A stretch of DNA of 64,000 nt from an uncultured Anaeromyxobacter sp. (GTDB taxonomy: Bacteria; Myxococcota; Myxococcia; Myxococcales; Anaeromyxobacteraceae): positions 1 to 64,000 of the forward strand of contig CAIQRS010000010.1 of assembly GCA_903874275.1 (NCBI GenBank). Direction: 5' to 3'. The notes under the pieces were generated by a model. The model was not told where the DNA came from and did not search any database. It worked only from the letters and a program-made list of their open reading frames with translations. Numbering within the stretch: position 1 is the first letter of the stretch; each line of letters opens with the position of its first letter. Below are positions 1,567 through 24,671 of this stretch, in pieces. The translations under genes were made by a program, and so were the position numbers.

Positions 1567-2802
1567 TCAGCGGATCATGAGCTGGATCGCGTCGATCGAG
1601 CGGGACCTGGAGTCCATGACCAGCAGCAGTCGTTTTCCGTCCGTGAAATACGGATCCCCGGTGAGGTTGTGGCGCGGCGCGCTCCGGGGGGCTTCCCCCA
1701 CCCCGGGCAGGAAGGCCACCCGGGAGAGGTACCCGGTCATCACCAGGTCCTGGAGCAGGTAGTCGCGGCTCTCGTCGACGTCGGGGTCGATCTTGTGGGT
1801 GGTGAGGTACCAGGAGTGGGTGGTGAGGCGGACGCCGATGTCGCGGCTCACCTGCCCGACCCAGACCGACCTCCCCTCGAACGTGAATGGGGCGAGCCAC
1901 ATCCGGAGGTGGTTGCGCCGGTCGATGTCGTTCCTCGGCTTCTGGAGCGCGGCGTCCTGGGGGCGCCCGAAGAGGTGGAGCGGGCTCACCGGGGAGGTCC
2001 GGTAGGACGACCCGAAGAGGAACGCCCTGACGCTTCGCAAGGCAGACTGCACGTCGAAGGGCTCGGTGAGGTTCCATCCCCGCTGCACGAACGGGAAGGC
2101 GATCTCCCTCCGCTTCCCGACCAGGACCAGGTTGAGCGGGTCGGCGACCGGATTTCCCTTCTTGTCGGCGGCGCAGCAGGGGAGCTTCTCCAGCTCGGCG
2201 AGGAGCGACGGGAAGTCGAGGTCCCGCACCTTGGATTCCGGGTAGAGGGATTCGAAGTCCACCCGCTGGAAATCCCACTTCTCTCCCGGCACCCGCGAGA
2301 CGAAGCGGTACTCGTGGGCCTTGACGTCATCGACGATCTCGATCCGGACGTAGCCGGTTCCCTGGCCGTCGTGCGTGTAGACGAACCCCTTGGCCGTCCT
2401 CCGCGCCGGGACCTCGAGCGGCATGCCGTTTCCGATGAGGTGCTCCGAGATCCGCCGGTTCCGGTCGCTCGTCCACCAGTGGTGGAACATGTAGGCCACC
2501 TCGAAGGGCGCGAAGTAGGCCGGGTCGGTCCCGATGGGGAAGTACCAGGCGCCCTGGTCGGAACGGTTCTCGATCTCCACCCAGACCGGACGGATCCCCT
2601 TCTTCTCGAGATCGACCCCGAGGAAGCGGCGGGCCTCCCCGCCGGAGAGCGCGACCGCGGTCACGCGAAATTCGGCGTCCTCCTTGGTCTCGGCCCGCTC
2701 GTGGAACGAGGCGCCCTCGTGCCCCTCGGGCGCGAAGGAGCCACAGGCGGAGAGAAGTGCGGCGGCGAGGATCGCGGCGGGGGTCGAGCGTTCGGCGGAC
2801 AG
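1567..2802 (-). CDS. Putative lipoprotein with LssY-C-terminal-like domain
   Basis: ORF track starts at GTG 2664, but the in-frame upstream sequence encodes a lipoprotein signal (LSAERSTPAAILAAALLSAC) preceded by GGGAGG; the only start near it is CTG at 2802. C-terminal RNHLRMWLAPFTFEGRSVWVGQVSRDIGVRLTTHSWYLTTHKIDPDVDESRDYLLQDL matches my memory of LssY-C proteins. Confidence 0.7.
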   Translation of the reverse strand: MSAERSTPAAILAAALLSACGSFAPEGHEGASFHERAETKEDAEFRVTAVALSGGEARRFLGVDLEKKGIRPVWVEIENRSDQGAWYFPIGTDPAYFAPFEVAYMFHHWWTSDRNRRISEHLIGNGMPLEVPARRTAKGFVYTHDGQGTGYVRIEIVDDVKAHEYRFVSRVPGEKWDFQRVDFESLYPESKVRDLDFPSLLAELEKLPCCAADKKGNPVADPLNLVLVGKRREIAFPFVQRGWNLTEPFDVQSALRSVRAFLFGSSYRTSPVSPLHLFGRPQDAALQKPRNDIDRRNHLRMWLAPFTFEGRSVWVGQVSRDIGVRLTTHSWYLTTHKIDPDVDESRDYLLQDLVMTGYLSRVAFLPGVGEAPRSAPRHNLTGDPYFTDGKRLLLVMDSRSRSIDAIQLMIR

Positions 2803-3171
2803 GGCAGCCTCCCGGGGGCGACCCTAGCGCAGCCCGCGGCACTCGCGTCCGCCCATTGTTCCGGGCGCCGATCGGAGTCAATTGGGATTTAGCGACCGAA
2901 CCTCGTCGAGTTGCCGGTCCTCTCCCGGCTGGCCAGAAACCGCCAATCTGGCCGCGAATGCGTTTACTTGCCTCCTTTCAGGAACTTGAAGAGCGCTCGG
3001 TGTCCCTCGGCGACGGGACGCAGCCCCTTCTCGCAGCGGTGTGAGGAGCATTGTCGGCGGAAGTGGAGTGATCCGGTCCGTGTCTCTCCGGGCCGCGGAT
3101 CGGGTGGGGCGGGACTCGAGGGATTCGAGCACACGGAAGCGACCGGGGAGGCCCGGGGCTGGGGGGAAACC

Positions 3172-6100
3172 ATGAAGCTCGTCGGAACGCAGAGGATCGG
3201 AACGCGCGTCGCTCGCGGCGCCTTCAACTCGTTCATGGCGACGGCAGCGGCGGCGCTCGCGCTGGCGGCGCCGCTCACGGCGCGGGGCGCGGTCGATTGC
3301 GGCACGCGCACGGTGACCGCAGACGTCGTCGTCCTCGACCAGCCGCTCATGTACAACCGGCTCGGCGCGCAGAACGTGAACGGCATCATGTACGCGCTGC
3401 GGCGGGACGTGGTGAGCAAGGGCTCGCTCTCGCCCTGCGGTGGCAGCTGCGCCGCCGGCAACGTGACCCTGCGACCCGACAAGCGCCCTCGCCCGCTGGT
3501 CCTCCGCGTCCCCGCGGGAAATTGCCTCGAGGTGAAGTTCCAGAACCTGCTCTCCGCCCTGCCCAACCCCGCCCCGTTGACGCCCGGCTTCGATCTTCTC
3601 CCGGTGAACGACCAGGTGGCGAGCCGCAAGGCCGGCTTCCACGCCCAGGGCATGCAGCTCGTGAACGTCATCGGCGACGACTCGTCGTGGGTGGGCGCCG
3701 GCGGGTCGAGCATGGTGGCACCGGGCGAGCCGGCCATCTACAGGTACTTCGCCGAGAAGGAGGGGGCCTTCCTCGTCACCAGCCACGGCGCGACCTTCGG
3801 AAGCGACGGGTCGGCGGGCAACAGCGCCAACGGCATGTTCGCGGTGATCAACGTCGAGCCGCCCGGGGCGAGCTTCTACCGAAGCCAGGTCACCGAGGAG
3901 GAGATGCGCCTCTGCACCACCGGGACGACCGACGACGGCCAGCCCGTCCTGGACTACGAGGCGACCTACCCGGCCGTCGATGCCACCGGCGCGGCCACGG
4001 TGTGGGCGCTCGAGGGCAAGGCCGGCCTGCCCATCCTCAACATGCTGCAGGGCGCGACGCTCGTGCACTCCGACCTGAACGCCGTCATCGCGAACTCCGA
4101 CCCCGCGGTTCCCACCGGGAAGTTCCCCGCCTCCACCTACCCGCTCGAGAGCGTCGGCAAGGTGAACCCCACCCTTCCCAACCGGCTCGAGCCCTTCCGC
4201 GAGTACACGGTGGTCTTCCACGACGAGATGGCGGTCTCGAACGCCTTCCCCGAGTGGTACCTCCACCCGGTCCTCAAGCACACGCTGTCCGCCGTGGGCG
4301 ACGTCTTCCAGGTGAACTACGGATCGGGCGGCGTGGGCTCGGAGGTCATCGCCAACCGGCTCGGCGTCGGCCCCATGCACGACTGCCTCGACTGCGTGTA
4401 CGAGGAGTTCTTCCTGACCTCGCCGGCGGTCGGCGACCCGGCCATGGTGGTGGACACCCCGGCCAACCACGGTCTCGAGGCCTGCGGACCTCCGGGCACC
4501 GGGCCGAACTGCGCCGCCACCGGCCCCAAGGCGACGCTGGCGTACTACCCGGACGACCCGTCCAACGTGCACCACAGCTACATCAACGACTTCGTGAAGT
4601 TCCGGAACGTGCACACCGGCAAGGAACATCACATCTTCCACCTGCACAACCACCAGTGGCTCTTCAACCCGAACGACGACAACTCCAACTACCTGGACGC
4701 CCAGGGCATCGGCCCGGGCGGCGGCTACACCTACGAGATCAACTTCGGTGGCTCGGGCAACCGAAACAAGAGCGCCGGCGACGCCATCTTCCACTGCCAC
4801 TTCTACCCGCACTTCGCCCAGGGCATGTGGGAGCTCTGGCGCATCCACGACGTGCTCGAGTCGGGCACGCCGCTGCTCGTCTCGGGCGGGGCGTTCCACA
4901 CCTCCCCCTTCGCGCTGAAGAACGGAGAGCCGGCCGTCGTCTCCACGGCCACCATCCCCGATCCGGCCAACGCCGCGAACACCATCACCGTTCCGACGGC
5001 GCGGGCCCGCGCCCTCCCCGACGGGGAGATCGTGGCCGGGACCCCGATCCCCGCGCTGGTCCCGCTGCCGGGCAAGGCCATGGCGGTGATGCCCGGAAAG
5101 GTCACGGTGGTTCCGAAGGTCGCCGGGGGCATCACCCTGGGCAGCAATGCCAGGGTGGCCCGCCCGGTCGCCGACGCGACCGGCGTCGTCACCGGGTGTG
5201 ACTCGGGCGATCCCGCCACGGCCTGCTCCGATCCCGCGCAGACCCACCCGACGCTGAACCCCAACGGAATCCGCAATCCCGGCTTCCCCTTCTGGCTGGC
5301 CGGCCTCGAGAGCACGGTGGGGCAGCGCATGCCCTCTCCCCCGCTCGACATGGCCGTGTCGGCGGGCGGCTGGGACGGCGGCCTGCCGCGCCACGCGCTC
5401 GACGGCTACGCCGCCGCCGGCTGCGTGGGGGCGACCAGGGGCGACTGCGCCGTCTCCAACCAGAGCCCGTACGACATGACCAAGACGGTGCACAAGGCGG
5501 CCCCGGTCTGGTTCCCCGAGGACGGCACCGACCTCGAGAAGGCGGCCATGGCCTTCCATGCCGTGCGCAACCACGCCAGCACGGCGAACCTCCTGAACGG
5601 CCAGACCGTCCCGGGAAGCTTCGTGACCAACGGATCCGGCCGCCCGGTCCCGGGCGCTCCCTTCCACGATCCCTGCATCGATGACCGGGGCACCGTCCTC
5701 GGCGCAGGCGTGACCGGCGAGTTCTTCTCCGGCGACGGAAAGTTCGGGACCACGGGCTCCTCCCCCTTCAACGCCGACAGCCCGCGAATCTACAAGGGCG
5801 CGAACATCCAGTTCGACGTGGTGCTCAACAAGCTCGGCTACCACTTCCCGCAGGAGCGCATCATCACCCTCTGGGAGGACGCCCTCCCCACCATCAACAA
5901 GCAGCGCGCCCCCGAGCCGCTGGTGATGCGGATGAACACCTTCGACTGCGTCATGTACCAGCACACCAACCTGGTGCCGGCCGTCTACGAGATGGACGAC
6001 TACCAGATCAAGACCACCACCGACATCATCGGCCAGCACATCCACCTGCCCAAGTGGGACCTCACCACCACCGACGGCTCGGCCAACGGCTGGAACTACG

Positions 6101-9045
6101 AGGACGGCACCCTCTCCCCCGACTCGGTGCGCGAGCGCATCGAAGCGATCAACGCCTTCAACGGGGCCAACGTCGCCGGGAACCCGACCGACAGCAGCGG
6201 GCGCCCCCCCGGGACCAAGCTCGCCGCCGCCAAGCACCCCTTCTTCCCGGCCGTGAGCCCCGGCGGCCTCGACTGGATGGGGGCCCGCACCACGCTCCAG
6301 CGCTGGTTCTCGGATCCGGTGGTGAACGTGGACGGCCAGCACCGCGGCCTGGGCATCATCTTCACCCACGACCACTACGGCCCCTCCACCCACCAGCAGG
6401 TCGGTCTCTACGCCACCGTGCTGGTCGAGCCTCCCGGGTCCACCTGGCTCCACAACGAGACCGGGGTGCCCATGTACACCCGCCCCGACGGCGGCCCCAC
6501 CAGCTGGCAGGCGGCCATCCTCGACGGCCCCAACAGCTACCGCGAGTTCTACTTCGAGTACTCGGACTTCCAGCACGCCTACAGGCCCGGCGTCTACGTC
6601 GGCCGCGGCCAGTGGGGCGCCCTGGGCGCCGCGCCGAGCGCCAACAGCTTCCGCGACGCGGTGAACCCACCGGTGAAGGCCATGGCGGCGGTTCCCTTCC
6701 CCGACCTCCTGACCTTCCCGGCGATCTGCCCGGGCGGCGGCCCGCGCCCCTGCCCCGAGGCCATCTCGGCCGACGACCCTGGTTTCCTGGTGGTGAACTA
6801 CCGCAACGAGCCGGTCGGCTTCCGCGTCTTCGACCCGACCCGGAGAGGGCCCGACGGCAAGCTGGGATCGCAGGCCGAAGGCTTCCCGGGTGACCTGGCC
6901 TTCGCGCTGCAAAGCCGCGTGGACCGCAAGATGGCCGCGCTGAACGTGCAGCCCAGGGCCGGCGCCGCCAACGCCATCAACGGCACCCAGTTCCCGCCGC
7001 CGCTCAACGTGGGAGGCGTCACCCCCGGCGACCCCTTCACCCCGCTCATGCGCGCCTACTTCGGCGACCCGGTCCGCATCAAGATCCAGGCCGGTGGTGA
7101 CGAGGAGTCCCACAGCGCCACGGTCTACGGCATGAAGTGGCTGCAGGGTGGATCGGGCTACGGCTTCGCCCCCAACTCGGGATGGCGCAACTCCCAGCAC
7201 GCCGGCATCTCCGAGCAGTTCACCTTCGCCTCGCCCACCATCCCGGTGCTGAACGGCGGGGCCCGCGCCGACCATCTCTACTCCCTCAACCCCAGCATCG
7301 ACGGCTTCTGGAACGGCGTCTGGGGGCTCTTCCGGAACTACGGGACCGCGCAGGCGAACCTCAAGCAGCTCCCCAACGGCGCGGTCCTGCCCTTCAAGCT
7401 CACCAACGCCGCCGCCTTCACCGGGATCTGCCCGGCCACCGCGGTCCTCCGCAGCTACGACCTCTCGGCCGTGCTCGCCAACGACGTGCTCGCCAACACC
7501 GAGGGGGTCACCATCCTGCCCGGCGACGGCTCGGAGATCATGAACGTGGGCGGCAAGACCGGCACCGGCAAGTCGGCGCTGAACCCCAGCGGCGGAACCC
7601 TGGTCTACAACCCGCGCACCACCACGCTCTCCAACGGCAAGACGGGGCCCCTCCACGACCCGACCGCCCTGCTCTGGGTCAAGACCGTCGATCTGGTGGC
7701 CCGCAACCCCGCCGCCAAGGCCTGCCTGAACTCGAAGGGCAAGCTCGACCCGACGCTCTCCACCTGCCCGGTCATGCTCAGGCCCGGCGCTCCGCTCGAG
7801 CCCATCGTCCTGCGGGCCGCGGCCGGCGAGTGCATCGGCGTGAAGGTGCGCAACCGGCTTCCCGCGGCGGTGCCCGACCTGGCCGGCTACAAGCACCTGC
7901 CCGGCATCGTGCCCCGTGACACGGCCAATCTCGCCGGAACCACCACCTTCAACAACAACCTGATCCGTCCGTCGAGCTACGTCGGCCTGCACCCGGCGCT
8001 CGTCTCCTACGACGTGAACATCGACGACGGCATGGCCATCGGGGCGACCGGCCTGGGCAACAACGGCGCCGGCCTGATCGCCGGCCCCGGCCAGACCCAG
8101 TTCTACCGCTGGTACGCGGGCGACATCAGCCTGGTGCCCGCGGCGGGCGGCGCCTACACGGTCGTGGCCACGCCGGTGGAGTTCGGCGGCGCCAACATCA
8201 CGCCGTCCGACGTCATCAAGCAGGGGCCGAAGGGGCTCGTCGGAGCGCTCGTCATCGAGCCGGCCGGCACCACCTGGGCGGAGGCCGACACCGTGCCGGA
8301 CCACCAGACGGCGAACCCCGCCGCCCCCAGGCGCGGGACTCGCGCCAGCGCCACCCTGAGTCCCGGCGCCACGCGTGACTTCGTGACCGTGATCCAGAAG
8401 GGGCTCGGCCTCCGCTACAAGGACGGCACCGCCGCCGAGATGCTCGCCGCCGAGGAGGCCATCGCCGAGGACGCCGAGGACTCCGGCCACATGGCCATCA
8501 ACTACGGCGCCGAGCCGCTCTGGTTCCGCTTCGGCCTGCAGCCGAATGCGGCTCTCACGGGCGGCCACGGAACCGGCCCGTCCTTCATGGACGTGGCCAA
8601 CGCGGACGCGGCGTTCTCGAACACCATCGCCGGAGGAGGGGACCCGGTCACCCCGGTCTTCACGGCGGCGGCCGGCGCGCCGGTGCGGATGCACCTGCTC
8701 CTGCCCACCGGATCCCCCCGGGCCTCGAGCTTCACGCTCCACGGCCACCTCTGGCAGCGCGCACCGTACGTCTGCCCGGGCTCCGCGAAGGACGGACTGG
8801 AAGGCAAGTGCCTCGCCACCGGCTACTTCCCGACAATCGCCGGAGAGGTCTCGTCCCGCGCCCTGGGAGCGAGCCCGATCTCCGACTACACCGGGTCCCA
8901 GGATCTGGTCATGCCGGGCTCCCACTTCGACATCGTGCTCCCCAGCGCGGGCGGCGCGGGCAAGGTGGCCGGCGACTACCTGTTCATGGACCGGGCCGGC
9001 TTCGGGACCACCTCGGGCCTTTGGTCGCTTCTCCGGGTGCAGTGA
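3172..9045 (+). CDS. Giant secreted multicopper oxidase (about 1957 aa), permuted copper-site order
   Basis: ATG 3172 after GGGGGGAAAC; signal peptide; HIFHLH (4630-4647), HCHFYPHFAQGM (4792-4827), HIH (6037-6045), HDH (6367-6375), extra HGH (8740-8748). Confidence 0.9.
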   Translation: MKLVGTQRIGTRVARGAFNSFMATAAAALALAAPLTARGAVDCGTRTVTADVVVLDQPLMYNRLGAQNVNGIMYALRRDVVSKGSLSPCGGSCAAGNVTLRPDKRPRPLVLRVPAGNCLEVKFQNLLSALPNPAPLTPGFDLLPVNDQVASRKAGFHAQGMQLVNVIGDDSSWVGAGGSSMVAPGEPAIYRYFAEKEGAFLVTSHGATFGSDGSAGNSANGMFAVINVEPPGASFYRSQVTEEEMRLCTTGTTDDGQPVLDYEATYPAVDATGAATVWALEGKAGLPILNMLQGATLVHSDLNAVIANSDPAVPTGKFPASTYPLESVGKVNPTLPNRLEPFREYTVVFHDEMAVSNAFPEWYLHPVLKHTLSAVGDVFQVNYGSGGVGSEVIANRLGVGPMHDCLDCVYEEFFLTSPAVGDPAMVVDTPANHGLEACGPPGTGPNCAATGPKATLAYYPDDPSNVHHSYINDFVKFRNVHTGKEHHIFHLHNHQWLFNPNDDNSNYLDAQGIGPGGGYTYEINFGGSGNRNKSAGDAIFHCHFYPHFAQGMWELWRIHDVLESGTPLLVSGGAFHTSPFALKNGEPAVVSTATIPDPANAANTITVPTARARALPDGEIVAGTPIPALVPLPGKAMAVMPGKVTVVPKVAGGITLGSNARVARPVADATGVVTGCDSGDPATACSDPAQTHPTLNPNGIRNPGFPFWLAGLESTVGQRMPSPPLDMAVSAGGWDGGLPRHALDGYAAAGCVGATRGDCAVSNQSPYDMTKTVHKAAPVWFPEDGTDLEKAAMAFHAVRNHASTANLLNGQTVPGSFVTNGSGRPVPGAPFHDPCIDDRGTVLGAGVTGEFFSGDGKFGTTGSSPFNADSPRIYKGANIQFDVVLNKLGYHFPQERIITLWEDALPTINKQRAPEPLVMRMNTFDCVMYQHTNLVPAVYEMDDYQIKTTTDIIGQHIHLPKWDLTTTDGSANGWNYEDGTLSPDSVRERIEAINAFNGANVAGNPTDSSGRPPGTKLAAAKHPFFPAVSPGGLDWMGARTTLQRWFSDPVVNVDGQHRGLGIIFTHDHYGPSTHQQVGLYATVLVEPPGSTWLHNETGVPMYTRPDGGPTSWQAAILDGPNSYREFYFEYSDFQHAYRPGVYVGRGQWGALGAAPSANSFRDAVNPPVKAMAAVPFPDLLTFPAICPGGGPRPCPEAISADDPGFLVVNYRNEPVGFRVFDPTRRGPDGKLGSQAEGFPGDLAFALQSRVDRKMAALNVQPRAGAANAINGTQFPPPLNVGGVTPGDPFTPLMRAYFGDPVRIKIQAGGDEESHSATVYGMKWLQGGSGYGFAPNSGWRNSQHAGISEQFTFASPTIPVLNGGARADHLYSLNPSIDGFWNGVWGLFRNYGTAQANLKQLPNGAVLPFKLTNAAAFTGICPATAVLRSYDLSAVLANDVLANTEGVTILPGDGSEIMNVGGKTGTGKSALNPSGGTLVYNPRTTTLSNGKTGPLHDPTALLWVKTVDLVARNPAAKACLNSKGKLDPTLSTCPVMLRPGAPLEPIVLRAAAGECIGVKVRNRLPAAVPDLAGYKHLPGIVPRDTANLAGTTTFNNNLIRPSSYVGLHPALVSYDVNIDDGMAIGATGLGNNGAGLIAGPGQTQFYRWYAGDISLVPAAGGAYTVVATPVEFGGANITPSDVIKQGPKGLVGALVIEPAGTTWAEADTVPDHQTANPAAPRRGTRASATLSPGATRDFVTVIQKGLGLRYKDGTAAEMLAAEEAIAEDAEDSGHMAINYGAEPLWFRFGLQPNAALTGGHGTGPSFMDVANADAAFSNTIAGGGDPVTPVFTAAAGAPVRMHLLLPTGSPRASSFTLHGHLWQRAPYVCPGSAKDGLEGKCLATGYFPTIAGEVSSRALGASPISDYTGSQDLVMPGSHFDIVLPSAGGAGKVAGDYLFMDRAGFGTTSGLWSLLRVQ

Positions 9046-9047
9046 AC

Positions 9048-10991
9048 ATGAACCGGACCCTTTCACTGACGCTCTCCCTCGCGACGCTGCTCGCCGCGGG
9101 GGGAGCGGGGGCCGCACCCTCGACCTCCGACCCCGGAGACGCCGGCCGGGTCGTGCGCGACGGCGTGGTGGTGGACTTCTCCATCGGCCCTCCCGGCGCC
9201 GCTCCGGGCGCCCCGCTGGTCGAGGGAGAGTACGCCGACGTCCGGTTCCGGATGACCGACGCGGCGAGCGGGCGGGCCGTCCCGGGTCTCCGGCCGGCCG
9301 CCTGGATGGACATGTCCGGGGTGGTGGGCGGCAAGGGGGGCGAGCAGCGCGCCTGCAAGGACAAGGTCGCCCTCTATCTGCAGGGGAGCGTGGGCATCCG
9401 GCCCATGGTGGACCTGAACAGCTACTACCTGCTCGTCCTGAACCAGGACGCCAGCGTCTCGGTCATCGACCCGGTGGTGAGCATGACCGGGAACACCAGC
9501 CTCTTCACCACCATCGTCCTCAAGCGTCCCGCAGCCGACTGGACGAAGGGGCTCGATCAGAAGCGGCTCTACCTGTCCCTCCCCAAGGCCGGGGAGGTGA
9601 CGGTGGTGGACGCGGAGACCTTCAAGGTGGTGGCCACGATCCCGGCCGGGGTCGAGCCCATGCGGCTCGCCCTCCAGCCGGACGGTCGCCACCTCTGGAT
9701 CGGGGACGACGATCGGGCGCCCGGCAAGGGCGGCGTCAACGTCCTCGACACCGAGGCCCTGAAGGTCGTGGCCAGCATCCCCACCGGTGCAGGCCACCAC
9801 GAGATCGCCCTGGCGGGGGACCGGATGGCCTTCGTCACCAACCGGGACGCCGGCACGGTCACGGCGATCGACGCGCAGAAGCTGGAGAAGGTGAAGGACA
9901 TCGCCACCGGGCCGCTGCCCATCTCGGTGGCCTGGTCGCCGCTCTCCCGGTCGGTCTACGTCGCCGACGGGAAGACCGGGGTGATCGCGGTCATCGACCC
10001 CTCGCGGCTCGCGGTGACGGCCCGCATCGAGACCCGGCCGGGCCTCGGTCCGGTGCGCTTCACCCAGGACGGGCGCTGGGCGTTCGCCGTCAACCCGGCC
10101 GCGAAGACCGTCTTCGTGGTGGACGCCGCCGAGAACCGGCTTGCCCACGCCATTCCGCTGGACGGCCAGCCGTACCAGGTGAGCTTCACCCGCGCCTTCG
10201 CCTACGTTCGGCTGCTCGACTCGGAGCAGGTGAAGATGGTGAACCTGCTCTCCCTGGGAGCCGACAGGAAGCCCATTGTCCAGGGGTTCGGCGCCGGCAC
10301 CGGCGCTCCGAAGGTCGCCGGGGAGCTGTCGGTGGCCGACTCGGTGGCACAGGCCGCCAACGAGGCCGCGGTCTTCGTCGTCAACCCCGCCGACTCGAAC
10401 ACCTACTTCTACATGGAGGGGATGAACGCCCCCATGGGGAGCTTCGGCGGCTACGGCCACGCGGCGCGGGCCGTGGCGGTCGTCGATCGCAGCCTGAAGG
10501 AGATCGAGCCCGGCGTCTACGCGGGAAAGGTCCGGGTCCCCGTGGCCGGGCGGTACGACGTCGCCTTCCTGCTCGACAACCCGCGCATCCTCCACTGCTT
10601 CTCGGCCGAGGCCCAGGACAACCCGGCGCTGAGCAGGGACGGGCGCTCGCTCACCGCCGAGTTCATCGACCTCCCGCTGCGGACGCCGCGGGGCTCCGCC
10701 GTTCCGGTGCGCTTCCGGCTGCTCGACACGCGCAACCGAAAGCCGCGCGTCGGACTGGGGGACGTCCGGGTGCTCGTGAGCGCCGCGTCCGGCGGCCCGC
10801 GCGAGGAGGCGGCCGCCGTCGAGGTGGGCGACGGCGTCTACGAGGCGCGGATCGTCCCCGCCCAGGCGGGCGCCCACTACCTCTTCATCTCCATCCCATC
10901 CCAGCGGATGAAGCCGAACGAGCTGCCGTTCCGGGGAATCCTCGTCGAGGCCCCCGCCGGACGGAAGGTCGGCCGGGCCGGGCCCACCTAG
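9048..10991 (+). CDS. Secreted YncE/YVTN-type beta-propeller protein
   Basis: Signal peptide MNRTLSLTLSLATLLAAGGAGA; repeated motifs such as GEVTVVDAETFKVVATIPAGVEPMRLALQPDG; start 2 nt after the MCO stop. Confidence 0.85.
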   Translation: MNRTLSLTLSLATLLAAGGAGAAPSTSDPGDAGRVVRDGVVVDFSIGPPGAAPGAPLVEGEYADVRFRMTDAASGRAVPGLRPAAWMDMSGVVGGKGGEQRACKDKVALYLQGSVGIRPMVDLNSYYLLVLNQDASVSVIDPVVSMTGNTSLFTTIVLKRPAADWTKGLDQKRLYLSLPKAGEVTVVDAETFKVVATIPAGVEPMRLALQPDGRHLWIGDDDRAPGKGGVNVLDTEALKVVASIPTGAGHHEIALAGDRMAFVTNRDAGTVTAIDAQKLEKVKDIATGPLPISVAWSPLSRSVYVADGKTGVIAVIDPSRLAVTARIETRPGLGPVRFTQDGRWAFAVNPAAKTVFVVDAAENRLAHAIPLDGQPYQVSFTRAFAYVRLLDSEQVKMVNLLSLGADRKPIVQGFGAGTGAPKVAGELSVADSVAQAANEAAVFVVNPADSNTYFYMEGMNAPMGSFGGYGHAARAVAVVDRSLKEIEPGVYAGKVRVPVAGRYDVAFLLDNPRILHCFSAEAQDNPALSRDGRSLTAEFIDLPLRTPRGSAVPVRFRLLDTRNRKPRVGLGDVRVLVSAASGGPREEAAAVEVGDGVYEARIVPAQAGAHYLFISIPSQRMKPNELPFRGILVEAPAGRKVGRAGPT

Positions 10992-11011
10992 CTTTCCCCG
11001 AGGACACCCAG

Positions 11012-11659
11012 ATGGCTCCCATGCGCTCCATCCTTCCCGCGGCGCTCGCCGCCCTCGTCCTGGCCGGGCCGGCCCGGGCGGAGGACGCACCACCCTGCCA
11101 CGGCCCCGGCGCCTCCGCCGACGCCGCGCCCCCTGCCGACGCCGGCGCGCGGGTCGAGGTTCCGGACGTCGAGCTCGTGGACCAGGACGGGAAGACCGTC
11201 CGGATCCGGTCGCTCCTCCAGTCGGGAAAGCCGGTGGTGGTGAGCTTCATCTTCACCACCTGCACCACCATCTGCCCGATGCTCTCCACCATCGTGTCGC
11301 GGGTGCAGGAGAAGCTGGGCGACCGGGTCGGCCAGGAGGTCTCCCTGGTCTCGATCTCGGTGGACCCGGCCCGCGACACGCCGGCCCGGCTCAAGGCCTA
11401 CGCCGCCCGCCACCACGCGAAGCAGGGCTGGACCTGGCTCACCGGCGGGCGTGGGACCGTCGAGCAGGTGCTGCGGGGCATGGGCGCCTACACGCCGAGC
11501 TTCGCGGACCATCCACCGATGGTGCTTGTCGGGGATGGCGCAGGCGGATGGACCCGCCTGAACGGCTTCCCCAGCCAGGCGACCATCGTGGCCCAGGTCG
11601 ATGCCTACGCGGCCCGGCCGGGAACCGACCCGGTCGCGACGACGGCGCAGGGGCACTGA
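11012..11659 (+). CDS. SCO1/SenC family copper chaperone (copy 1)
   Basis: Signal peptide; FTTCTTICPML CxxxCP motif, SISVDPARDTPARLKAYA, downstream His in SFADHPP. Confidence 0.92.
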   Translation: MAPMRSILPAALAALVLAGPARAEDAPPCHGPGASADAAPPADAGARVEVPDVELVDQDGKTVRIRSLLQSGKPVVVSFIFTTCTTICPMLSTIVSRVQEKLGDRVGQEVSLVSISVDPARDTPARLKAYAARHHAKQGWTWLTGGRGTVEQVLRGMGAYTPSFADHPPMVLVGDGAGGWTRLNGFPSQATIVAQVDAYAARPGTDPVATTAQGH

Positions 11660-11660
11660 C

Positions 11661-12299
11661 ATGATCCTTCGCATCCTCGTTGCCCTCCTCGTCCTCGCTC
11701 TCGCCCAGCCGGGGCGGGCGGACGATCCGGCCGCGCCGGCCGTGCCGAAGCCCCTGTCCCGCGAGGAGAAGGCCCGGGCCTACTTCACCGACTCGGTCCT
11801 CCTCGACCAGGACGGCCGCGCGGTCCGCTTCTACTCCGACGTCCTGGCCGGAAACGTCGTGGTGGTGAACTTCATCTTCACCCGCTGCACGGAGGCCTGC
11901 CCACTCCTCACCCGGCGCATGAACGCGGTCCGCCGCGCGCTGGGCGACCGGTTCGCTCGCGACGTCCGCTTCGTCTCCATCAGCGTGGACCCCGAGTTCG
12001 ACACGCCCCAGGAACTGCGCCGTTTCTCGGCCACGCAGGAGGCCACCTTCTCGGGCTGGTCCTGGCTCACCGGGAAGAAGGAGGACGTGGACCGGGTGAA
12101 GAGGCGCCTCGGCGAGGTGGGGGAGAACCCGGGCGATCACGGGACCGGCTTTCTCGCCGCGAACGTCCGGACGGGGCACTGGATCAAGATCCGGCCCGAC
12201 GCCTCGCCCGCGATCGCCGCGGAGCAGGTTCGTGAACTGGCCGACGAGGACGGAATCCGGGGGGCGCCTGGCACGGCCGGTCCGACCGCGGCTCGCTGA
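11661..12299 (+). CDS. SCO1/SenC family copper chaperone (copy 2)
   Basis: FTRCTEACPLLTRRM CxxxCP motif, SISVDPEFDTPQEL; signal peptide; 1 nt after the previous gene. Confidence 0.92.
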   Translation: MILRILVALLVLALAQPGRADDPAAPAVPKPLSREEKARAYFTDSVLLDQDGRAVRFYSDVLAGNVVVVNFIFTRCTEACPLLTRRMNAVRRALGDRFARDVRFVSISVDPEFDTPQELRRFSATQEATFSGWSWLTGKKEDVDRVKRRLGEVGENPGDHGTGFLAANVRTGHWIKIRPDASPAIAAEQVRELADEDGIRGAPGTAGPTAAR

Positions 12300-13077
12300 G
12301 CCATCCCCACCCCGGCGCGGCCGGTGGGTGCTCCTCGCAGGAGCGACCCTGCTGGCGGCGATCGCAGCGTGGTTCCTCCTGCGCGACCCGGAGGCCCAGG
12401 ACGGCGGCGTCGTGACGGAGATCGCCGCTCCCCCTCCGGTGGTTCGGACCCGGGAGCCCATGCCGAGCGAGGTCGCCGATCCCGGGGAGGCCAGGGCGCT
12501 GGCCGAACGGCAGGAGAGGCGCGCCCGGTTCGAGGCGATGCGCGCCGCCTTCGCCGCGGCCGCGGGCGAAGCGGCGGTCTCCCGCGCCCGGCTCGATCCG
12601 GCGCTCCAGGCCCTCTGGCCGGGCCGGCCGGCACCCTACCTCCTCGCCTGCCGCGGCGCCCTCTGCCGCGTCGAGGTCCCGGCGCCGGTTCGGCCGGCCC
12701 AGGCGGCGCTCGCCGCCGACGCCGGGGTGCGCGTCCTGGCCGAGGGGGTCTTCCTCGATCCGGACGGCATCGACCCCGTCGCCTACGTCCTGCTCGCCCC
12801 GCCGAACGCGCCTCCGGGCGACGACCTGCTGGCCGTCGTGGAGCGGGAGTTCTTCCAGGAGGGCGATGCCCGGGACTGCCTCTCCCGCGTCGGAGCCACC
12901 GGCTCGGTGGAATACGAGCTCCGGATCGACACCTCCGGGTTCACCTACCGCTCCCGCACCGACCTGCCCCGGCCGGTGCTCGAGTGCGTGGACGACGTGC
13001 TGAACGGGATCGTCGCCACCACCCAGGTGCCGAGCGACGTGAAGGCCTCCACCCGCACGTTCACGCTCCGTCGATGA
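12232..13077 (+). CDS. Membrane-anchored hypothetical protein
   Basis: One TM segment RWVLLAGATLLAAIAAWFLL then a periplasmic region with paired cysteines (LACRGALCRVE); GTG start overlaps SCO2, exact start uncertain. Confidence 0.65.
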   Translation: MNWPTRTESGGRLARPVRPRLAEPSPPRRGRWVLLAGATLLAAIAAWFLLRDPEAQDGGVVTEIAAPPPVVRTREPMPSEVADPGEARALAERQERRARFEAMRAAFAAAAGEAAVSRARLDPALQALWPGRPAPYLLACRGALCRVEVPAPVRPAQAALAADAGVRVLAEGVFLDPDGIDPVAYVLLAPPNAPPGDDLLAVVEREFFQEGDARDCLSRVGATGSVEYELRIDTSGFTYRSRTDLPRPVLECVDDVLNGIVATTQVPSDVKASTRTFTLRR

Positions 13078-14654
13078 TGGTCTTCGTTTCCCGCCCCGGG
13101 CTCCAGGCGATCCTGGCCGTCGTCGCCCTCTTCGCGGCGGCGCCCGCGTCGGCCCTCGAGTTGACGGCGCGTGAACTGGCGGGAAAGCGCATCTACCTCG
13201 CCGGCGAGAGCCCCTCGGGAGGCGACGTCGTGGTCAAGCTCGGTCGGGACGGCTCGACCCTGCCCGGCACCGCCGCCCCCTGCGGCAGCTGCCACGGCGC
13301 CGACGGCCTGGGGCGACCCGAGGGAGGGGTGCGCCCGTCCGCCGTCGTCTGGTCGGAGCTCGCGAAGCCCTACGGCCACGCCCATCCCGGAGGGCGCAAG
13401 CACCCGCCGTTCACCGACGCGACGCTGGCCCGGACGCTGCGGGACGGCCTGGATCCGGCCGGCAATCCGCTCGACGTCTCCATGCCCCGGTATGGCCTCT
13501 CGGACGACGACCTGGGCAGCCTCGCGGCCTACCTCCGCAGGCTGGAGGAGGACCTCGACCCGGGCATCGCCCCGGACGCGCTCCGCATCGGGACGGTCCT
13601 GCCCACCGCCGGCACGCTCGCCGACGTGGGCCTCCCCATGCGAGCGGTGCTCACCGGGTGGTTCGACGCGCTCAACCGCCGCGGCGGCATCCACGGCCGC
13701 AGGGTGGAGCTCGTGGTGGCCTGCTACGACTCCGACCGGGCCGACGGGGTGGATGCCGCCCGCGCCCTGCTCCGGAGGGACGACCTCTTCGCGCTCGTCT
13801 CCGGCCTCTTCCCCGCCGCCGAGACCGAGGTTGCGGCGCTCGTCGGCGAGGCCCGCGTCCCCATGATCGGACCCTTCAGCCTGTTCGCCCGGAACGACGA
13901 CGCCGCCGGCGCCTGGATCTTCCACCCGTCCGGTGGGCTCGGAGAGCAGGCCCGGGTCCTCGGCGCCTTCGCGATGCGGGACCTCGGGGCCGGCGCCAGG
14001 AGGATCGCGGTGGTCCACGCTCCCGAGCCTCCCTACGCCGAGGCGGCCCGGGGGGCGGCCGAGGAGCTGCGGAAGCGGGGCGGACCCGCTCCGGAGATGC
14101 TGGTGCTCCGCTCCGAGCCGAAGGAGCTTGCCGATCGGCTGGCGAAGGGCGGCTTCGGCGCGGTCCTCGTCCTGGCCGGCGACGGCGCGCTGGAGGGGCT
14201 CGCCCGCCTGCTCGCGGGTGGGAAGGCTGCTCCCGCGCTGCTCGCCTCGGGGACGCTTGCCGGCCGCGCTGCCACGGAGCTGGCCGGCCGATACCCCGGA
14301 GCGGTCTTCCTCGCCTTCCCGAGCTCCCCTTCCGACGAGTCCCCGGCCGCCACGCAGGAGCTCGCCCGCCTTCGCGAGGCCGCCGGCTCCCCCCGACGTT
14401 CGCGCGCCTCCCAGGCATCCGCCGTGGTGGATGCGATCGTCCTGGTGGAGGGGCTCAAGCGGTCGGGACGCGCCCTCAGCCGCGAGCGGCTCGTCGCCAG
14501 CCTGGAGGCCCTCTACGCCTTCGAGACCGGCCTCTCGCCGCCGGTCACCTTCGGCCCCGACCGGCGCGTGGGGGCGCTGGGTGCCCACGTGGTCCGGGTG
14601 GACGCGGCCGGCAAGGCCTTCGTGCCGGTGGGCGGCTGGATTCCCCTCGAGTAG
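13074..14654 (+). CDS. c-type cytochrome fused to ABC-type periplasmic ligand-binding domain
   Basis: CGSCHGADGLGR heme motif with distal MPRYGLSDDDLGSLAAYLRRL, then RIGTVLPTAGTLADVGLPMRAVLTGWFDALNRRGGIHGRRVELVV typical of Peripla_BP_6; ATGA overlap with upstream gene. Confidence 0.88.
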   Translation: MMVFVSRPGLQAILAVVALFAAAPASALELTARELAGKRIYLAGESPSGGDVVVKLGRDGSTLPGTAAPCGSCHGADGLGRPEGGVRPSAVVWSELAKPYGHAHPGGRKHPPFTDATLARTLRDGLDPAGNPLDVSMPRYGLSDDDLGSLAAYLRRLEEDLDPGIAPDALRIGTVLPTAGTLADVGLPMRAVLTGWFDALNRRGGIHGRRVELVVACYDSDRADGVDAARALLRRDDLFALVSGLFPAAETEVAALVGEARVPMIGPFSLFARNDDAAGAWIFHPSGGLGEQARVLGAFAMRDLGAGARRIAVVHAPEPPYAEAARGAAEELRKRGGPAPEMLVLRSEPKELADRLAKGGFGAVLVLAGDGALEGLARLLAGGKAAPALLASGTLAGRAATELAGRYPGAVFLAFPSSPSDESPAATQELARLREAAGSPRRSRASQASAVVDAIVLVEGLKRSGRALSRERLVASLEALYAFETGLSPPVTFGPDRRVGALGAHVVRVDAAGKAFVPVGGWIPLE

Positions 14655-14667
14655 GGCGCACCCCTCC

Positions 14668-16527
14668 CTATCGAAGGCTCCAGCGCCGCCGGCCGGTGGC
14701 CGGGCGCATCCCGGCATCGAGCCGCTGCCCGGGCTCGAGCCGTCCGGTGCGGCGCAGCGCCTCCTCGATGAGCGGTCGGCTCTTGGGATCGCCCCAGCGG
14801 ATGAGCGCCTTCTGGGTCCGCTTCTCCCGCATGTCGCGCACCACGTGCACCGGCTTCCCGCTCATGGGGTGGAAGCCGGACCACTGGATGTCGGAGGCCA
14901 GCGTCATGGGCGTGGGCATGAAGTCCTGCACCTGCTGGGGCTTCCAGCGGTTCTTCTGGAGGTACTCCATGAGCTGGACGGCGTGCTCGGTGGTGGCCCC
15001 GGGGTGGGAGGAGATGAAGTAGGGCACCAGGTACTGCTCCTTGCCGGCCTTCTTCGAGTAGCGCTCGAACTCGCCGCGGAACTGCTCGAACTCGGCCGGG
15101 CCGGGCTTCTTCATGACCTTGAGGACGTCGTCGCAGACGTGTTCGGGCGCGACCTTGAGCTGGCCCGAGACGTGGTGGCCGATGAGCTCCTCGAGGTAGG
15201 CCTGCCCGTTCTTCTTGTCGTGGTGGGCCAGGTCGTAGCGCAGCCCCGATCCCACGAAGGCGTGTTTCACGCCCTTCACGGCCCGTGCACCACGGTAGAG
15301 CTCCACGAGCGGCCCGTGGTCCACCGCGAAGAACTGGCAGACGGTGGGGTAGACGCAGGAGGCCCGCCGGCAGGCGGCGTGGGCCTCGGCGCTGGTGCAG
15401 CCCATCTGCCACATGTTGGCGGTGGCCCCGCCCAGGTCGGTGATGGTGCCGCGGAACTTCGGGTCCCTGGTGATGGTCTCGATCTCCCGGATCACGCTCC
15501 CGTGGCTGCGCGAGGAGACGTCGCGCCCCTGGTGCTCGGTGATGCAGCAGAAGGCGCACCCGGCGGCGCAGCCGCGCAGGATGGCCACGCTCCAGCGGAT
15601 CTGCTCGAGCGCCGGGATGTGGGCCCCGCCGTAGGAGGGGTGGGCGTCGCGCGCGAAGGGGAGCTCGTACACCGCGTCGAGTTCCTCGGTGGAAGGCGGC
15701 GGCATGGGCTCGTTCACCACCACGTGCCGCTCGGCCCTGCCGCGGCCGTGTCGCTGCACCATCACCCGGGCGTTCTCGTGGTTGTGCTCGAGGTGGTAGA
15801 GCTTCGAGAAGTGCGCGAAGGACCGCTTGTCCTGGGCCACCTCCTCGAAGGCGGGGAGCACGAGCGTCTTGCGAGCGCGATCGTCCAGGCCGGCCATGGC
15901 CAGGTCGGCGACGGCGATCGCCGTACCCGGAACGTCCACGAGGCCGCAGAGGTCCTCCCCGGAGGCGAGCCGCCGGGCGATCTCGACGATGGGTTTCTCC
16001 CCCTGCCCGTAGACCAGGAGGTCGGCGCCGCTGTCCACCAGGACCGACGGCCGCACCCGGTCCTCCCAGTAGTCGTAGTGGGCGATGCGCCGCAGCGAGG
16101 CCTCGACCCCGCCGATCACGATGGGCATGGTCGGCCCGAAGGCCTGGCGCGCCAGCCGGGCATACACCGTCACCGCCCGGTCGGGGCGGCGTCCGGCCTC
16201 CCCACCGGGTGTGTAGGCGTCGTCGGAGCGGGGACGCTTGTGGGCCGTGTAGTGGTTGACGAGGGAGTCCATCGCACCCGCGGTGATGCCCACGAAGAGG
16301 CGGGGCCTCCCCAGGCGCAGCAGGTCCTCCGGCGTGTCCCAGCGCGGCTGGGCGATGATTCCGACCCGGAAGCCCCGCGCCTCGAGTACCCGGCCGACCA
16401 CCGAGGCCCCAAAGGCGGGATGGTCCACGTAGGCGTCCCCGGTGACGAGGATCACGTCGAGGGCGTCCCAGTCGCGGGCGGCGACCTCGTCGGGGAACAT
16501 GGGGAGGAACCTTGGGGGCATGTCCAC
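14668..16527 (-). CDS. ygiQ: YgiQ family radical SAM protein
   Basis: [66 protein letters not shown]. Confidence 0.93.
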
Positions 16528-16575
16528 GGGACATACATGGCCCCACGTCGCCCCGCGATCAAGCGTCCACGCTTT

Positions 16576-16603
16576 TTGACCGTTTGACGGGGGGCGGTAT
16601 CAT
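16576..16603 (+). promoter_or_regulatory. Candidate sigma70-type promoter for the 16631 gene
   Basis: TTGACC (16576-16581), 16-nt spacer, TATCAT (16598-16603), about 28 nt before the ATG. Confidence 0.45.
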
Positions 16604-16630
16604 CGATGGGTTGGTGCGGCGCCCACACCC

Positions 16631-17530
16631 ATGATCGACATCCAGGAATCCAGCCGGGAGTTTCGCGAGCTCGACGAGAAGCTCCGCGGCGGCGGGCTCT
16701 CGCCGGAGGAGCGGGCGCGCCTGGAGGAGCTCCGCGCGGCCGGCGGACCCGATCCCCTGGCCGAGGAGCCGCCCGGGGTGCACTGGGACGATGGGCCCGT
16801 GGAGTCACCGCTCGAGCTTCCCGAGGAGCCCGGCTCGCCGTCCATCCCGCCGCCCGACCCGGCCTTCGCGGCGGTGGTCGTGGAGTTGGCCGAGGACGCC
16901 GACGAGGTCATCCCCGAGGTTGCGGCCGAGGACGTGGAGGAGGTCCTCCCGGAGTCCGACGCCCCCGCCTCGCTGGCCGCGGTCTCCTGGGTGGACGAGG
17001 ACGGTCCCGGCGGCGAGGTCGTATCCCTGGACGCGCTGCTCGCAACGCCCCCTCCTCCTCACGCCGAGTCGCTCGCGCCCCCGCTCCCGCCCCCCTTGCC
17101 CTCCCCGCCGCCGCCCTGGCCCGTCCGGGCAGCCGCACCCGATCCCTTCGCCCCCTCCCCGTCGTTCGTCGGCGGCGACCACCGCGTCGTGCTCCACACG
17201 GTCGAGGGGCAGGTCCTGCGCGGGTCGCTCGCCAACGCCGACCTCGCCGACCTGGAGCTCCCGCTCATCCAGCCCAACGGGGCGGTGGCGCGGATCCCGG
17301 CCGGGCAGGTGAAGGCCATCTTCTTCATGCTCGAGTCCGGCGAGCGTCCCGCCGCGGCCGCCGGCACGCGGGTGCGGGTCACCTTCGGCGACGGCCGGCA
17401 GATCTCCGGCCTCTCCCCCGACTACTCCCCCGACTCCTCCGGCTTCTTCGTCCTGCCGCTCGACAGCCGGACCCACACGGCGCGGGTCTGGGTCTACCGG
17501 GCCTCCGTCCGGCAGATCGCGATCGGATAG
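16631..17530 (+). CDS. Hypothetical protein with acidic and Pro-rich linker and C-terminal PilZ-like beta domain
   Basis: Open frame with linker TPPPPHAESLAPPLPPPLPSPPPPWP and C-terminal VVLHTVEGQVLRGSLANADLADLELPLIQPNG. Confidence 0.75.
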   Translation: MIDIQESSREFRELDEKLRGGGLSPEERARLEELRAAGGPDPLAEEPPGVHWDDGPVESPLELPEEPGSPSIPPPDPAFAAVVVELAEDADEVIPEVAAEDVEEVLPESDAPASLAAVSWVDEDGPGGEVVSLDALLATPPPPHAESLAPPLPPPLPSPPPPWPVRAAAPDPFAPSPSFVGGDHRVVLHTVEGQVLRGSLANADLADLELPLIQPNGAVARIPAGQVKAIFFMLESGERPAAAAGTRVRVTFGDGRQISGLSPDYSPDSSGFFVLPLDSRTHTARVWVYRASVRQIAIG

Positions 17531-17541
17531 CGCGGCGCCGT

Positions 17542-18252
17542 TCAGTTGAGCCAGCGCCGGTCCGGATCCCGGTCGGCGTGGATCACCTCGAAGCGCCCGC
17601 GTCCCTTCCTGCGCGGCAGGCGGATGCGGCGCAGCCATTGCCCCGGTCCCTTCCCGCTCACGTGCGCCCAGGCGATCCCCTCGGCCAGGAGGTGGGGGAC
17701 GAAGGCGACCACGTCTGGCAGGGAGAACAATGCGAAGAAGACCGTTCCGCCAATCGTGACCCAAACGAGCGCCTTGCCGGAGACCGGGACGGCGAAGAAG
17801 AGCAGGATCTGCCGGAACGGGTGGTTGAGCCCCCAGGCGATGACGACCGCGTTGAGCGCCACCCAGAAGCCTCTGAAGGGGTAGCCATCGAGCCCCGGCC
17901 AGGCGAGCGCGAGGAGCGATGCCACGGCGCCCGCCACCGCCGGGACGGCGAAGTAGGTGAGGAGGAAGCGCCGCTCTCCCCAGGCCTCCACGAGGTCCCG
18001 GCCGAACCAGTAGAGCACCAGGCCGCCGAAGAGCAGGTTGAGCGGATTGTCCTCGACGAGCACCCAGGTGACGAGCCGCCAGACCTCGCCACGCCAGATC
18101 TCTCCGGGGTACAGCACGAGGAGCTCCGTCAGGTGCGCCCCGCCCACCTTCGCCGCCAGGCTCACCACCACCGTCGCCACGATGAGCCCTCCCACCGAGG
18201 TGGGGACCCGCCCGCCGAAGGAGAGGAGGTTTCCGGGGCGGCCGGACGACAA
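17542..18252 (-). CDS. Rhomboid-like integral membrane protein
   Basis: IWRGEVWRLVTWVLVEDNPLNLLFGGLVLYWFGRDLVEAWGERRFLLTYF resembles the rhomboid N-terminal half; several TM segments. Confidence 0.75.
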   Translation of the reverse strand: MSSGRPGNLLSFGGRVPTSVGGLIVATVVVSLAAKVGGAHLTELLVLYPGEIWRGEVWRLVTWVLVEDNPLNLLFGGLVLYWFGRDLVEAWGERRFLLTYFAVPAVAGAVASLLALAWPGLDGYPFRGFWVALNAVVIAWGLNHPFRQILLFFAVPVSGKALVWVTIGGTVFFALFSLPDVVAFVPHLLAEGIAWAHVSGKGPGQWLRRIRLPRRKGRGRFEVIHADRDPDRRWLN

Positions 18253-18255
18253 TGG

Positions 18256-18450
18256 TCAGGCTCCTGCCGGCTTGTAGAAGAGGATGATCGTCAGGCAGTG
18301 GAACTGGTTGTCCGACGAGAGCGTGACCGACTTGTCCACGATCTCCAGCTCGGGGTGCTTGCCGAGCCAGTTGTTGATGGTGTCGCTCATGGCGTCCCGA
18401 TCGCGGGCCAGCGTCGCCGAGAACACCTTGCACCCCGTGAACTTCTCCAT
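18256..18450 (-). CDS. Small conserved-type protein (64 aa)
   Basis: MEKFTGCKVFSATLARDRDAMSDTINNWLGKHPELEIVDKSVTLSSDNQFHCLTIILFYKPAGA; ATG at 18450, start inside the longer track ORF. Confidence 0.6.
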   Translation of the reverse strand: MEKFTGCKVFSATLARDRDAMSDTINNWLGKHPELEIVDKSVTLSSDNQFHCLTIILFYKPAGA

Positions 18451-18479
18451 GGTTTCCCCCTCGCCCCTCAGCCTCAAGC

Positions 18480-19676
18480 CTACAGCGCCTCGACGATGAC
18501 CGCGATACCCTGTCCACCGCCGATGCAGGCCCCGGCCAGGCCGAAGCGCCCGCCCCGCTGCCGCAGCGCCTGGATGGTGTGCAGCGTGAGCCGGGCCCCG
18601 CTCGCCCCGAGTGGGTGGCCGACCGCGATGGCGCCCCCGTCCACGTTGGTGCGGTCCCGCGGCAGCCCCAGCTCCTTCTCCACGGCCAGGTACTGCGGCG
18701 CGAAGGCCTCGTTCACCTCGAAGAGGTCGAAATCGGAGAGCTTCGCCTCGGCCCTGGCCATGGCGTTCCGGAAGGCCGGGGCCGGCCCGATGCCCATGAC
18801 CGTGGGGTCCACCCCTGCCACTCCCCAGTTGACGAGCCGGGCCAGCGGCGCGAGCCCGCGCCGGTCGGCCGCCGCCCGGGTCATGACCACCATCATGGCG
18901 GCCCCGTCGGCCACGCCGCTCGCCGCACCCGCGTGGATGACGCCGTCCTTCTTGAAGATGCGGGGGAGCTTGCGGAGCCCCTCGACCGTGGTCTCGGGGC
19001 GGGGGTGCTCGTCCCTGTCGAAGGTCACCTTGCCCTTGCGGGTCTCGATCTCCACCGGCGCGATCTCGTCCTTGAAGCGTCCGGCGGCCTGGGCCTCGGC
19101 GGTGCGGCGCTGGGAGAGGACGCTGAACTCGTCCACCTCGTCCTGGGTGATCCGGTACTGCTCGGCGAGCTTCTCGGCGGTGAGCGCCATGGGCATCTTG
19201 GCCTGGGAGTCGGTGAGCGCGGTCCAGAGGGCGTCCTCGATGGCCGGGGTCTTGCCCAGCGGCACGCCGAACCTCCCCCCGCGCAGCACGTAGGGTGCCT
19301 GGCTCATCGACTCGGTCCCGCCCACCAGCACCGCCTCGGCCTGGCCGGTGGCGATCTGGAAGGCGCCCTGGATCACCGCCTCGAACCCGGATCCGCACAG
19401 CCTGTTCACGATCAGTGCGGGCGTCTCGACCGGGACCCCGACCCGGAGCCCGACATGGCGGGCCAGGTAGATGGCGTCGGCGGAGGTCTGGAGCACGTTG
19501 CCCACCACCACGTGGCCGATCTCCGCGGGCGGGAGCCCGGCGTCGCGAAGGGCCGCGCCGGCCGCGTGGACGGCCAGGTCGGTGGCCGTGAAGTCCTTGA
19601 GCGTGCCACCGAAGGTTCCGAAGGGGGTGCGGCGGCCGGCGACGAAGACGATCTCCTGCGGTGTGGCGGAACGCAT
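18480..19676 (-). CDS. Acetyl-CoA acetyltransferase / thiolase
   Basis: VNRLCGSGFEAV active Cys, GGTESMSQAPY, AVGHPLGASGARL, GGQGIAV C-terminus. Confidence 0.95.
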   Translation of the reverse strand: MRSATPQEIVFVAGRRTPFGTFGGTLKDFTATDLAVHAAGAALRDAGLPPAEIGHVVVGNVLQTSADAIYLARHVGLRVGVPVETPALIVNRLCGSGFEAVIQGAFQIATGQAEAVLVGGTESMSQAPYVLRGGRFGVPLGKTPAIEDALWTALTDSQAKMPMALTAEKLAEQYRITQDEVDEFSVLSQRRTAEAQAAGRFKDEIAPVEIETRKGKVTFDRDEHPRPETTVEGLRKLPRIFKKDGVIHAGAASGVADGAAMMVVMTRAAADRRGLAPLARLVNWGVAGVDPTVMGIGPAPAFRNAMARAEAKLSDFDLFEVNEAFAPQYLAVEKELGLPRDRTNVDGGAIAVGHPLGASGARLTLHTIQALRQRGGRFGLAGACIGGGQGIAVIVEAL

Positions 19677-19690
19677 GCAGACCTCCAGCT

Positions 19691-20353
19691 TCAGGGTGCG
19701 GAGCGCGAACGGACGATCGAGGTGACGCAGAAGGCGAGGACGGCGGCGGCGAAGAGGGTGTTGCCCAGGTAGACGGCGAAGCGGCGGCGGATCTCCTGGC
19801 CGCCGATCCCCCGGTACCAGGCGCGGGCCGCGGCGTCGCGGCCGGCCAGGTCGCGGGCCGGAAGGGGCGCCCCGTGCGCGCTGGCGAGGCGGGCCATCGC
19901 ACGCCGGTGGATCTCGAGCACCTGCACGAGCGCCACCCCGGGGAGGCCGCTCACCTCGCCGAGCCTCCCCGACCTCGCCGCGCGCGCGTGGTTGGCGGTG
20001 AGGGCGGCGGCGCCGTCCGGGAAGGTGGAGAGGAGCTGGACCCGCGCGACGGCGCCAGGGTGGGGCGCCAGCTCGAAGACGTCGGCGAAGACCAGCCCGT
20101 CGGCGTCGGCGAAGGTCTCGGAGCGGAGCCCCAGCCCCCGGAGCGGCCCGTCCTCGGCGTGGCTTCCCAGGAGCCGGAATCCGAGCGGCAGGAGCAGCTC
20201 GGCGGCGGCCCGCTGCGCCTCGGTCGGGGCGGGCGCATCCGGCGTGGAGCGGGAGGAGACGAGCGACGGCGCCACGGCCAGGAGGCCCCGCCTCCCGTAC
20301 CGCAGGATCATCATCGCGGCGTAGAAGCCCGCCAGCGCGAGGAGGATGGTCAC
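19691..20353 (-). CDS. Hypothetical membrane protein with N- and C-terminal TM segments
   Basis: GTG start at 20353 overlaps the tatC stop (GTGA); N-terminal TM ILLALAGFYAAMMIL, C-terminal TM LFAAAVLAFCVTSIV. Confidence 0.7.
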   Translation of the reverse strand: MTILLALAGFYAAMMILRYGRRGLLAVAPSLVSSRSTPDAPAPTEAQRAAAELLLPLGFRLLGSHAEDGPLRGLGLRSETFADADGLVFADVFELAPHPGAVARVQLLSTFPDGAAALTANHARAARSGRLGEVSGLPGVALVQVLEIHRRAMARLASAHGAPLPARDLAGRDAAARAWYRGIGGQEIRRRFAVYLGNTLFAAAVLAFCVTSIVRSRSAP

Positions 20354-21156
20354 GACGCGGTGGCGGCCTCGGCCGCCTTCCTCTTCTTTCCCACGATGCG
20401 GGCCGCGATGATGCCCACCTCGTAGAAGACGATCATGGGCGCCGCCATGAGGAACAGGTTGAGCGGGTCGCCGGTGGGGGTGAGGATCGCGGCCAGGATC
20501 ACGTTCACGATGGCGGCGTGGCGTCGGTACTTGGACAGGAACTCGGGCGTGACGAGCCCGATCATCGACAGGAAGGCGATGATGACGGGGATCTCGAAGA
20601 CCACGCCGAAGCCGAGCATCATGGCGAGCACCAGGGTGAGCTGCTCGCGCATGGTGAGGATGGGCTTCATGTCCGGCCCCGCGATGGAGGCCAGCGCCGG
20701 GAAGGCGAAGGGCATCACCACGAAGTAGGTGAAGGCCACCCCGCAGTAGAAGAGCAGCGTCCCGATGGCGACGAAGGGGATGACGAGCGTCTTCTCCTTC
20801 TTGTAGAGGCCTGGGGCGATGAAGAGCCAGAGCTGGAAGAGCACCCAGGGTGCGGCCAGGAAGAGCCCGCCGTAGAGCGCGACCTTGAGGTACACCATGA
20901 AGGGCTCGAGGGAGCTCGTGTAGTTGAGGGCCCGCTGCCCCTCCGGGAGCGAGTCGAGCACCGGCTGCATCACCCAGCGGAAGAGCCGCTCGGAGAACCA
21001 GCCGGCCACGGCCACGCCGACGGCCACGCCGAGGAGCGCCCGGACCAGCCGGATGCGCAACTCCTTCAGGTGGTCGAAGAAGGTGGCCCGGACCTCGCCC
21101 TCCGGGGGAGGAGGGTCGGTCCCCTCGGCCGCGGCGGTCTCGGCGGGTTCGCTCAT
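20350..21156 (-). CDS. tatC: Sec-independent protein translocase TatC
   Basis: FFDHLKELRIRLVRALLGV; SLEPFMVYLKVALYGGLFLAAPWVLFQLWLFIAPGLYKKEK; FGVVFEIPVIIAFLSMIGLV. Confidence 0.96.
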   Translation of the reverse strand: MSEPAETAAAEGTDPPPPEGEVRATFFDHLKELRIRLVRALLGVAVGVAVAGWFSERLFRWVMQPVLDSLPEGQRALNYTSSLEPFMVYLKVALYGGLFLAAPWVLFQLWLFIAPGLYKKEKTLVIPFVAIGTLLFYCGVAFTYFVVMPFAFPALASIAGPDMKPILTMREQLTLVLAMMLGFGVVFEIPVIIAFLSMIGLVTPEFLSKYRRHAAIVNVILAAILTPTGDPLNLFLMAAPMIVFYEVGIIAARIVGKKRKAAEAATAS

Positions 21157-21578: not shown

Positions 21579-21601
21579 GGGAGGGGCGTTTATACCACGG
21601 C

Positions 21602-22012: not shown

Positions 22013-22061
22013 AATGCTCAGGATCGGCGGAGTGCGGAGGTGAGGGGGTTGGTGGATCCTT

Positions 22062-22086
22062 GCGACGTCTACTGCGTAGACGTCGC
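22062..22086. terminator. Perfect 11-bp stem / 3-nt loop between convergent genes; terminator candidate
   Basis: GCGACGTCTAC-TGC-GTAGACGTCGC; no U-tract on either side. Confidence 0.45.
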
Positions 22087-22088
22087 TG

Positions 22089-24638: not shown

Positions 24639-24671
24639 CCGGGAGGACTGTAGGCAGGCCCCGGCGGCGGA

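Follow-up and report, generated by a model that had tools for sequence, protein, structure and literature searches.

The six genes at positions 3172 to 14654 of the window, by which we mean the whole stretch of 64,000 nucleotides of Anaeromyxobacter sp. DNA that was analysed, are an mnxG operon, a known set of genes. Judged from its sequence, the operon quite probably directs the extracytoplasmic oxidation of Mn(II) by O2, carried out by a giant multicopper oxidase (MCO) that would be secreted or attached to the envelope, with SCO, beta-propeller, cytochrome and membrane proteins as accessories. An earlier note on this DNA had proposed an extracytoplasmic copper-dependent oxidation module, possibly acting on a metal, and this part of its interpretation stands, while its views that the cytochrome accepts the electrons and that the partners fit no system it could name are not supported.

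The densely packed open reading frames all lie on the plus strand, and both their coordinates and their junctions, which had been described before, were confirmed. The MCO gene (3172-9045, 1957 aa; identified by NCBIfam NF041487, PDB 9bxa and ligand alignment) is followed by genes for a YVTN beta-propeller protein with a C-terminal beta-sandwich region (9048-10991, 647 aa; domain search), two SCO1/SenC proteins (11012-11659, 215 aa, and 11661-12299, 212 aa; Pfam), a membrane-anchored protein of no family (12232-13077, 281 aa; GTG start uncertain, four invariant Cys), and a fusion of a class I cytochrome c with a periplasmic binding-protein domain, Peripla_BP_6 (13074-14654, 526 aa; Pfam). The Pfam and NCBIfam domains agree with the gene types assigned earlier (giant MCO, beta-propeller, two SCO proteins and cytochrome fusion). 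The junctions are, in order, gaps of 2, 20 and 1 nt and overlaps of 68 and 4 nt, and we infer that the six genes are co-transcribed. An mnxG operon would be expected to be under the control of MnxS1/MnxS2/MnxR and sigma-54. In the region 5' of the operon (2784-3171, plus strand), scans for sigma-70 and sigma-54 promoters found nothing above chance, and no convincing promoter of either type was recognized there.

The putative mnxG operon of Pseudomonas putida GB-1 (PputGB1_2447 onward) consists of genes for mnxG, a YVTN beta-propeller protein, two SCO1/SenC proteins, a protein combining an ABC substrate-binding domain with cytochrome c, and SurA (PMC11409713 Table 4), and it has also been depicted with these partners elsewhere (PMC8218464 Fig. 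2); the P. putida mnxG is described as a Mn oxidase gene (PMC11409713). The first five of these gene types are matched in order and orientation by the window, which differs in having the membrane protein gene between the second SCO gene and the cytochrome fusion and in lacking the terminal surA. Since the propeller and the binding-domain fusion both belong to this published operon, they are standard partners of mnxG, and the earlier opinion that they lie outside any nameable system is not supported. With a Pseudomonas MnxG-type protein the MCO shares about 50% identity, and in the genome of Pseudomonas schmalbachii the mnxG, propeller, SCO, SCO and cytochrome fusion genes are collinear with those of the window, with identities of 49, 45, 46, 45 and 39%, respectively, the first SCO pairing best with the first and the second with the second. 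Three tandem full-length mnxG copies are located 5' of a single set of propeller, SCO, SCO, cytochrome fusion and surA genes in L009 (P. schmalbachii, 9875-25717) and L090 (11568-17471). The mof operon of Leptothrix discophora and Rubrivivax A210 (mofA, mofB, mofC; PMC8218464), compared here by published gene descriptions only, likewise combines a large MCO with a cytochrome c protein and has MofB, which is macrophage infectivity potentiator-like, as well as a putative copper metallochaperone in A210 (PMC8218464), but unlike for the window no propeller or binding-protein fusion is described for it.

The relationship of the MCO to MnxG, which the earlier note had listed among its possible relatives, extends over the full length of the protein: residues 45-1956 align to positions 2-1893 of the 1894 positions of the NCBIfam MnxG model NF041487 (2231 bits, E=0). 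The equivalog cut-off of this model is strict (3100 bits), the MCO scores below it, and it is passed by none of the 195 Myxococcota genomes; therefore, we do not claim the strict NCBI name for the MCO, only the homology and the operon type. Pfam barely detects the protein. Its best sequence match in the PDB is the solved MnxG (9bxa, 6.8e-66), which from its name and sequence we take to be the Bacillus protein; the cupredoxin stretches of the two proteins are homologous, including an HCHxxP...GM motif, although the solved chain has 1227 residues compared with 1957 in the MCO. The MCO is the sole MnxG-like copy in its genome; a second one was looked for there, and the other MCO (G000:C28) is of the Cu-oxidase_2/3 type.

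All four copper motifs of MCOs are present, namely HxxHxH (H487-H492), HCHxxxHxxxxM (H541-M552), HxH (H956-H958) and HxH (H1066-H1068). The type 1 ligands (H487, C542, H547, M552) and the type 2/type 3 ligands (H490, H492, H541, H543, H956, H958, H1066, H1068), assigned to their sites on the basis of general MCO motifs, are invariant (1.00) across 78 aligned sequences. Because the trinuclear site is complete, the MCO should reduce O2 itself, and O2 rather than the cytochrome is the expected electron acceptor. Use of O2 is plausible since the genome encodes three haem-copper oxidase subunits I. A separate stretch, CLDCVYEE (residues 405-412; 4384-4407 of the window), contains a CxxC with two acidic residues after it that are invariant or nearly so in the 78 MCOs, is aligned with CPDCDSEE in the solved MnxG, and is a candidate metal site or disulfide.

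The partner proteins also retain their characteristic residues. Both SCO1/SenC proteins keep the CxxxCP motif and the distal histidine (C84, C88 and H167 in the first; C76, C80 and H160 in the second), and the cytochrome fusion keeps its haem motif C70-x2-C73-H74 and M137. In the beta-propeller protein, C103 and C517 are invariant and an EGM..PM motif is conserved; a NosZ-like copper site was considered for this protein and rejected, the NosZ fold matches being generic (TM ~0.4, rmsd 13-18). The membrane-anchored protein is confined to four Anaeromyxobacteraceae operons (that of the window, L002, L012 and L011), and its C-terminal region weakly resembles TonB C-terminal domains.

Five of the six genes recur jointly and in order across many phyla. 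Within 7 kb downstream of 48 homologous MCO loci, a propeller gene was found in 41, an SCO gene in 33 and a cytochrome fusion in 30, with all three in 28, compared with 3, 4 and 2, respectively, upstream of 47 such loci. A lack of co-conservation of the partners with the MCO had been put forward as a ground for refuting the idea of a functional module, and this check did not refute it. The MCO is found in 4 of 24 Anaeromyxobacteraceae genomes, and some MnxG match, in many cases far weaker, in 39 of the 195 Myxococcota genomes. A cultured carrier is Anaeromyxobacter oryzae Red232, with a homologue of 67% identity. Many genomes of a Myxococcaceae-like family (f6) have a distant MnxG relative of ~1800 aa, and in three of them the copies score nearer to the Pseudomonas MnxG model than does the MCO of the window. 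In the MCO tree the phyla are mixed, and the Anaeromyxobacter sequences are followed most closely by those of a Methylococcaceae bin (with the isolate name MnB_9) and of a Geobacteraceae bin, which fits horizontal transfer but does not prove it. Vertical inheritance within the family, modelled as a single clade of all four Anaeromyxobacteraceae MCOs, was mildly rejected (p-AU 0.027), which is weak evidence for transfer.

Within the genus the operon is a discrete cassette that is either cleanly present or cleanly absent. In a genome of the same genus without mnxG (G015), the LssY_C and YgiQ-type genes that flank the operon lie next to each other, and 2784-14679 of the window is replaced by ~24 bp with both flanks collinear (blastn). 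In another congener (G016) the operon is present at the same site as in the window, and there a PpiC/SurA gene follows the cytochrome fusion. This terminal gene, which is also present in L011 but is not universal among other MCO loci, was not found after 14654 in the window. When 14654-14698 of the window was compared with the congener (L126, 4533-5565), no remnant of the gene was seen in the interval that separates the cytochrome fusion from the YgiQ-type gene. Because the congener has the operon with the gene at the same site, the genome of the window appears to have lost surA. Far from the cassette, at 62221-63423, the window encodes a glutathionylspermidine synthase-like ATP-grasp protein (PF03738).

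From these similarities we infer Mn(II) as the substrate and the roles of the partners. Electrons would be taken from Mn(II) by the type 1 copper and passed to O2 at the trinuclear cluster, and a Mn(III)/Mn(IV) oxide would form outside the cytoplasm. Copper loading, or keeping the cysteines of the copper site reduced, is the most likely task of the two SCO proteins. The beta-propeller and the cytochrome fusion are conserved accessories that probably serve maturation, help in attachment or take part in side electron transfer, and the Anaeromyxobacteraceae-specific membrane protein may be an added one. The substrate is taken here from sequence, however, and could differ, because the MCO scores below the equivalog cut-off and shares only 49% identity with its P. 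schmalbachii homologue. The missing surA also counts against the preferred reading. The same operon and enzyme class could have a physiological substrate other than Mn(II), such as Fe(II), Cu(I) or a phenolic compound, and the versatility of MCOs, the NF041487 score and the spread of homologues over about ten phyla, with identities as low as ~30% and few tested activities, all point in this direction. Yet the full accessory set and gene order of the Mn-oxidizing Pseudomonas operon are retained, and one of the nearest homologues, 61% identical, comes from the bin labelled MnB_9/Mn-Methylococcaceae, a hint of Mn that lies in the name alone, so we regard a different substrate as unlikely.

It is still less likely that the cytochrome/binding-protein fusion passes electrons from the MCO into the respiratory chain, which would make metal oxidation energy-yielding. 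Its haem motif does not vary among 38 aligned sequences and its gene is close to the MCO in most loci, but some MCO loci have no such fusion within 7 kb, and an enzyme with a complete O2-reducing site would not need an external acceptor. That six envelope genes merely happen to lie side by side here, without forming a functional unit, has a negligible probability, contradicted as it is by their co-conservation and order, the clean cassette and the published operon. Mn(II) oxidation by O2 is the preferred function. The wide co-conservation of the propeller and the cytochrome fusion suggests that MnxG needs these partners, whose roles are putative.

These results place an almost complete mnxG operon in the Anaeromyxobacteraceae, an unexpected lineage for this known operon type. 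The family is known for the reduction of Mn(IV) and Fe(III), and the genome of the window encodes proteins with 16 and 26 CxxCH motifs, that is, multihaem cytochromes. One paper counts Anaeromyxobacter as a Mn reducer (PMC12569786), and we found no paper naming mnxG in this genus in the literature searched, which leaves out most subscription journals. It is conceivable, though rather doubtful, that a single bacterium uses MnxG to make Mn oxide under oxic conditions and its multihaem cytochromes to respire that oxide once oxygen is gone, so that the oxide around the cell would be a store of electron acceptor. If the operon is active, Mn oxidation and Mn reduction could both be open to study in a single organism.
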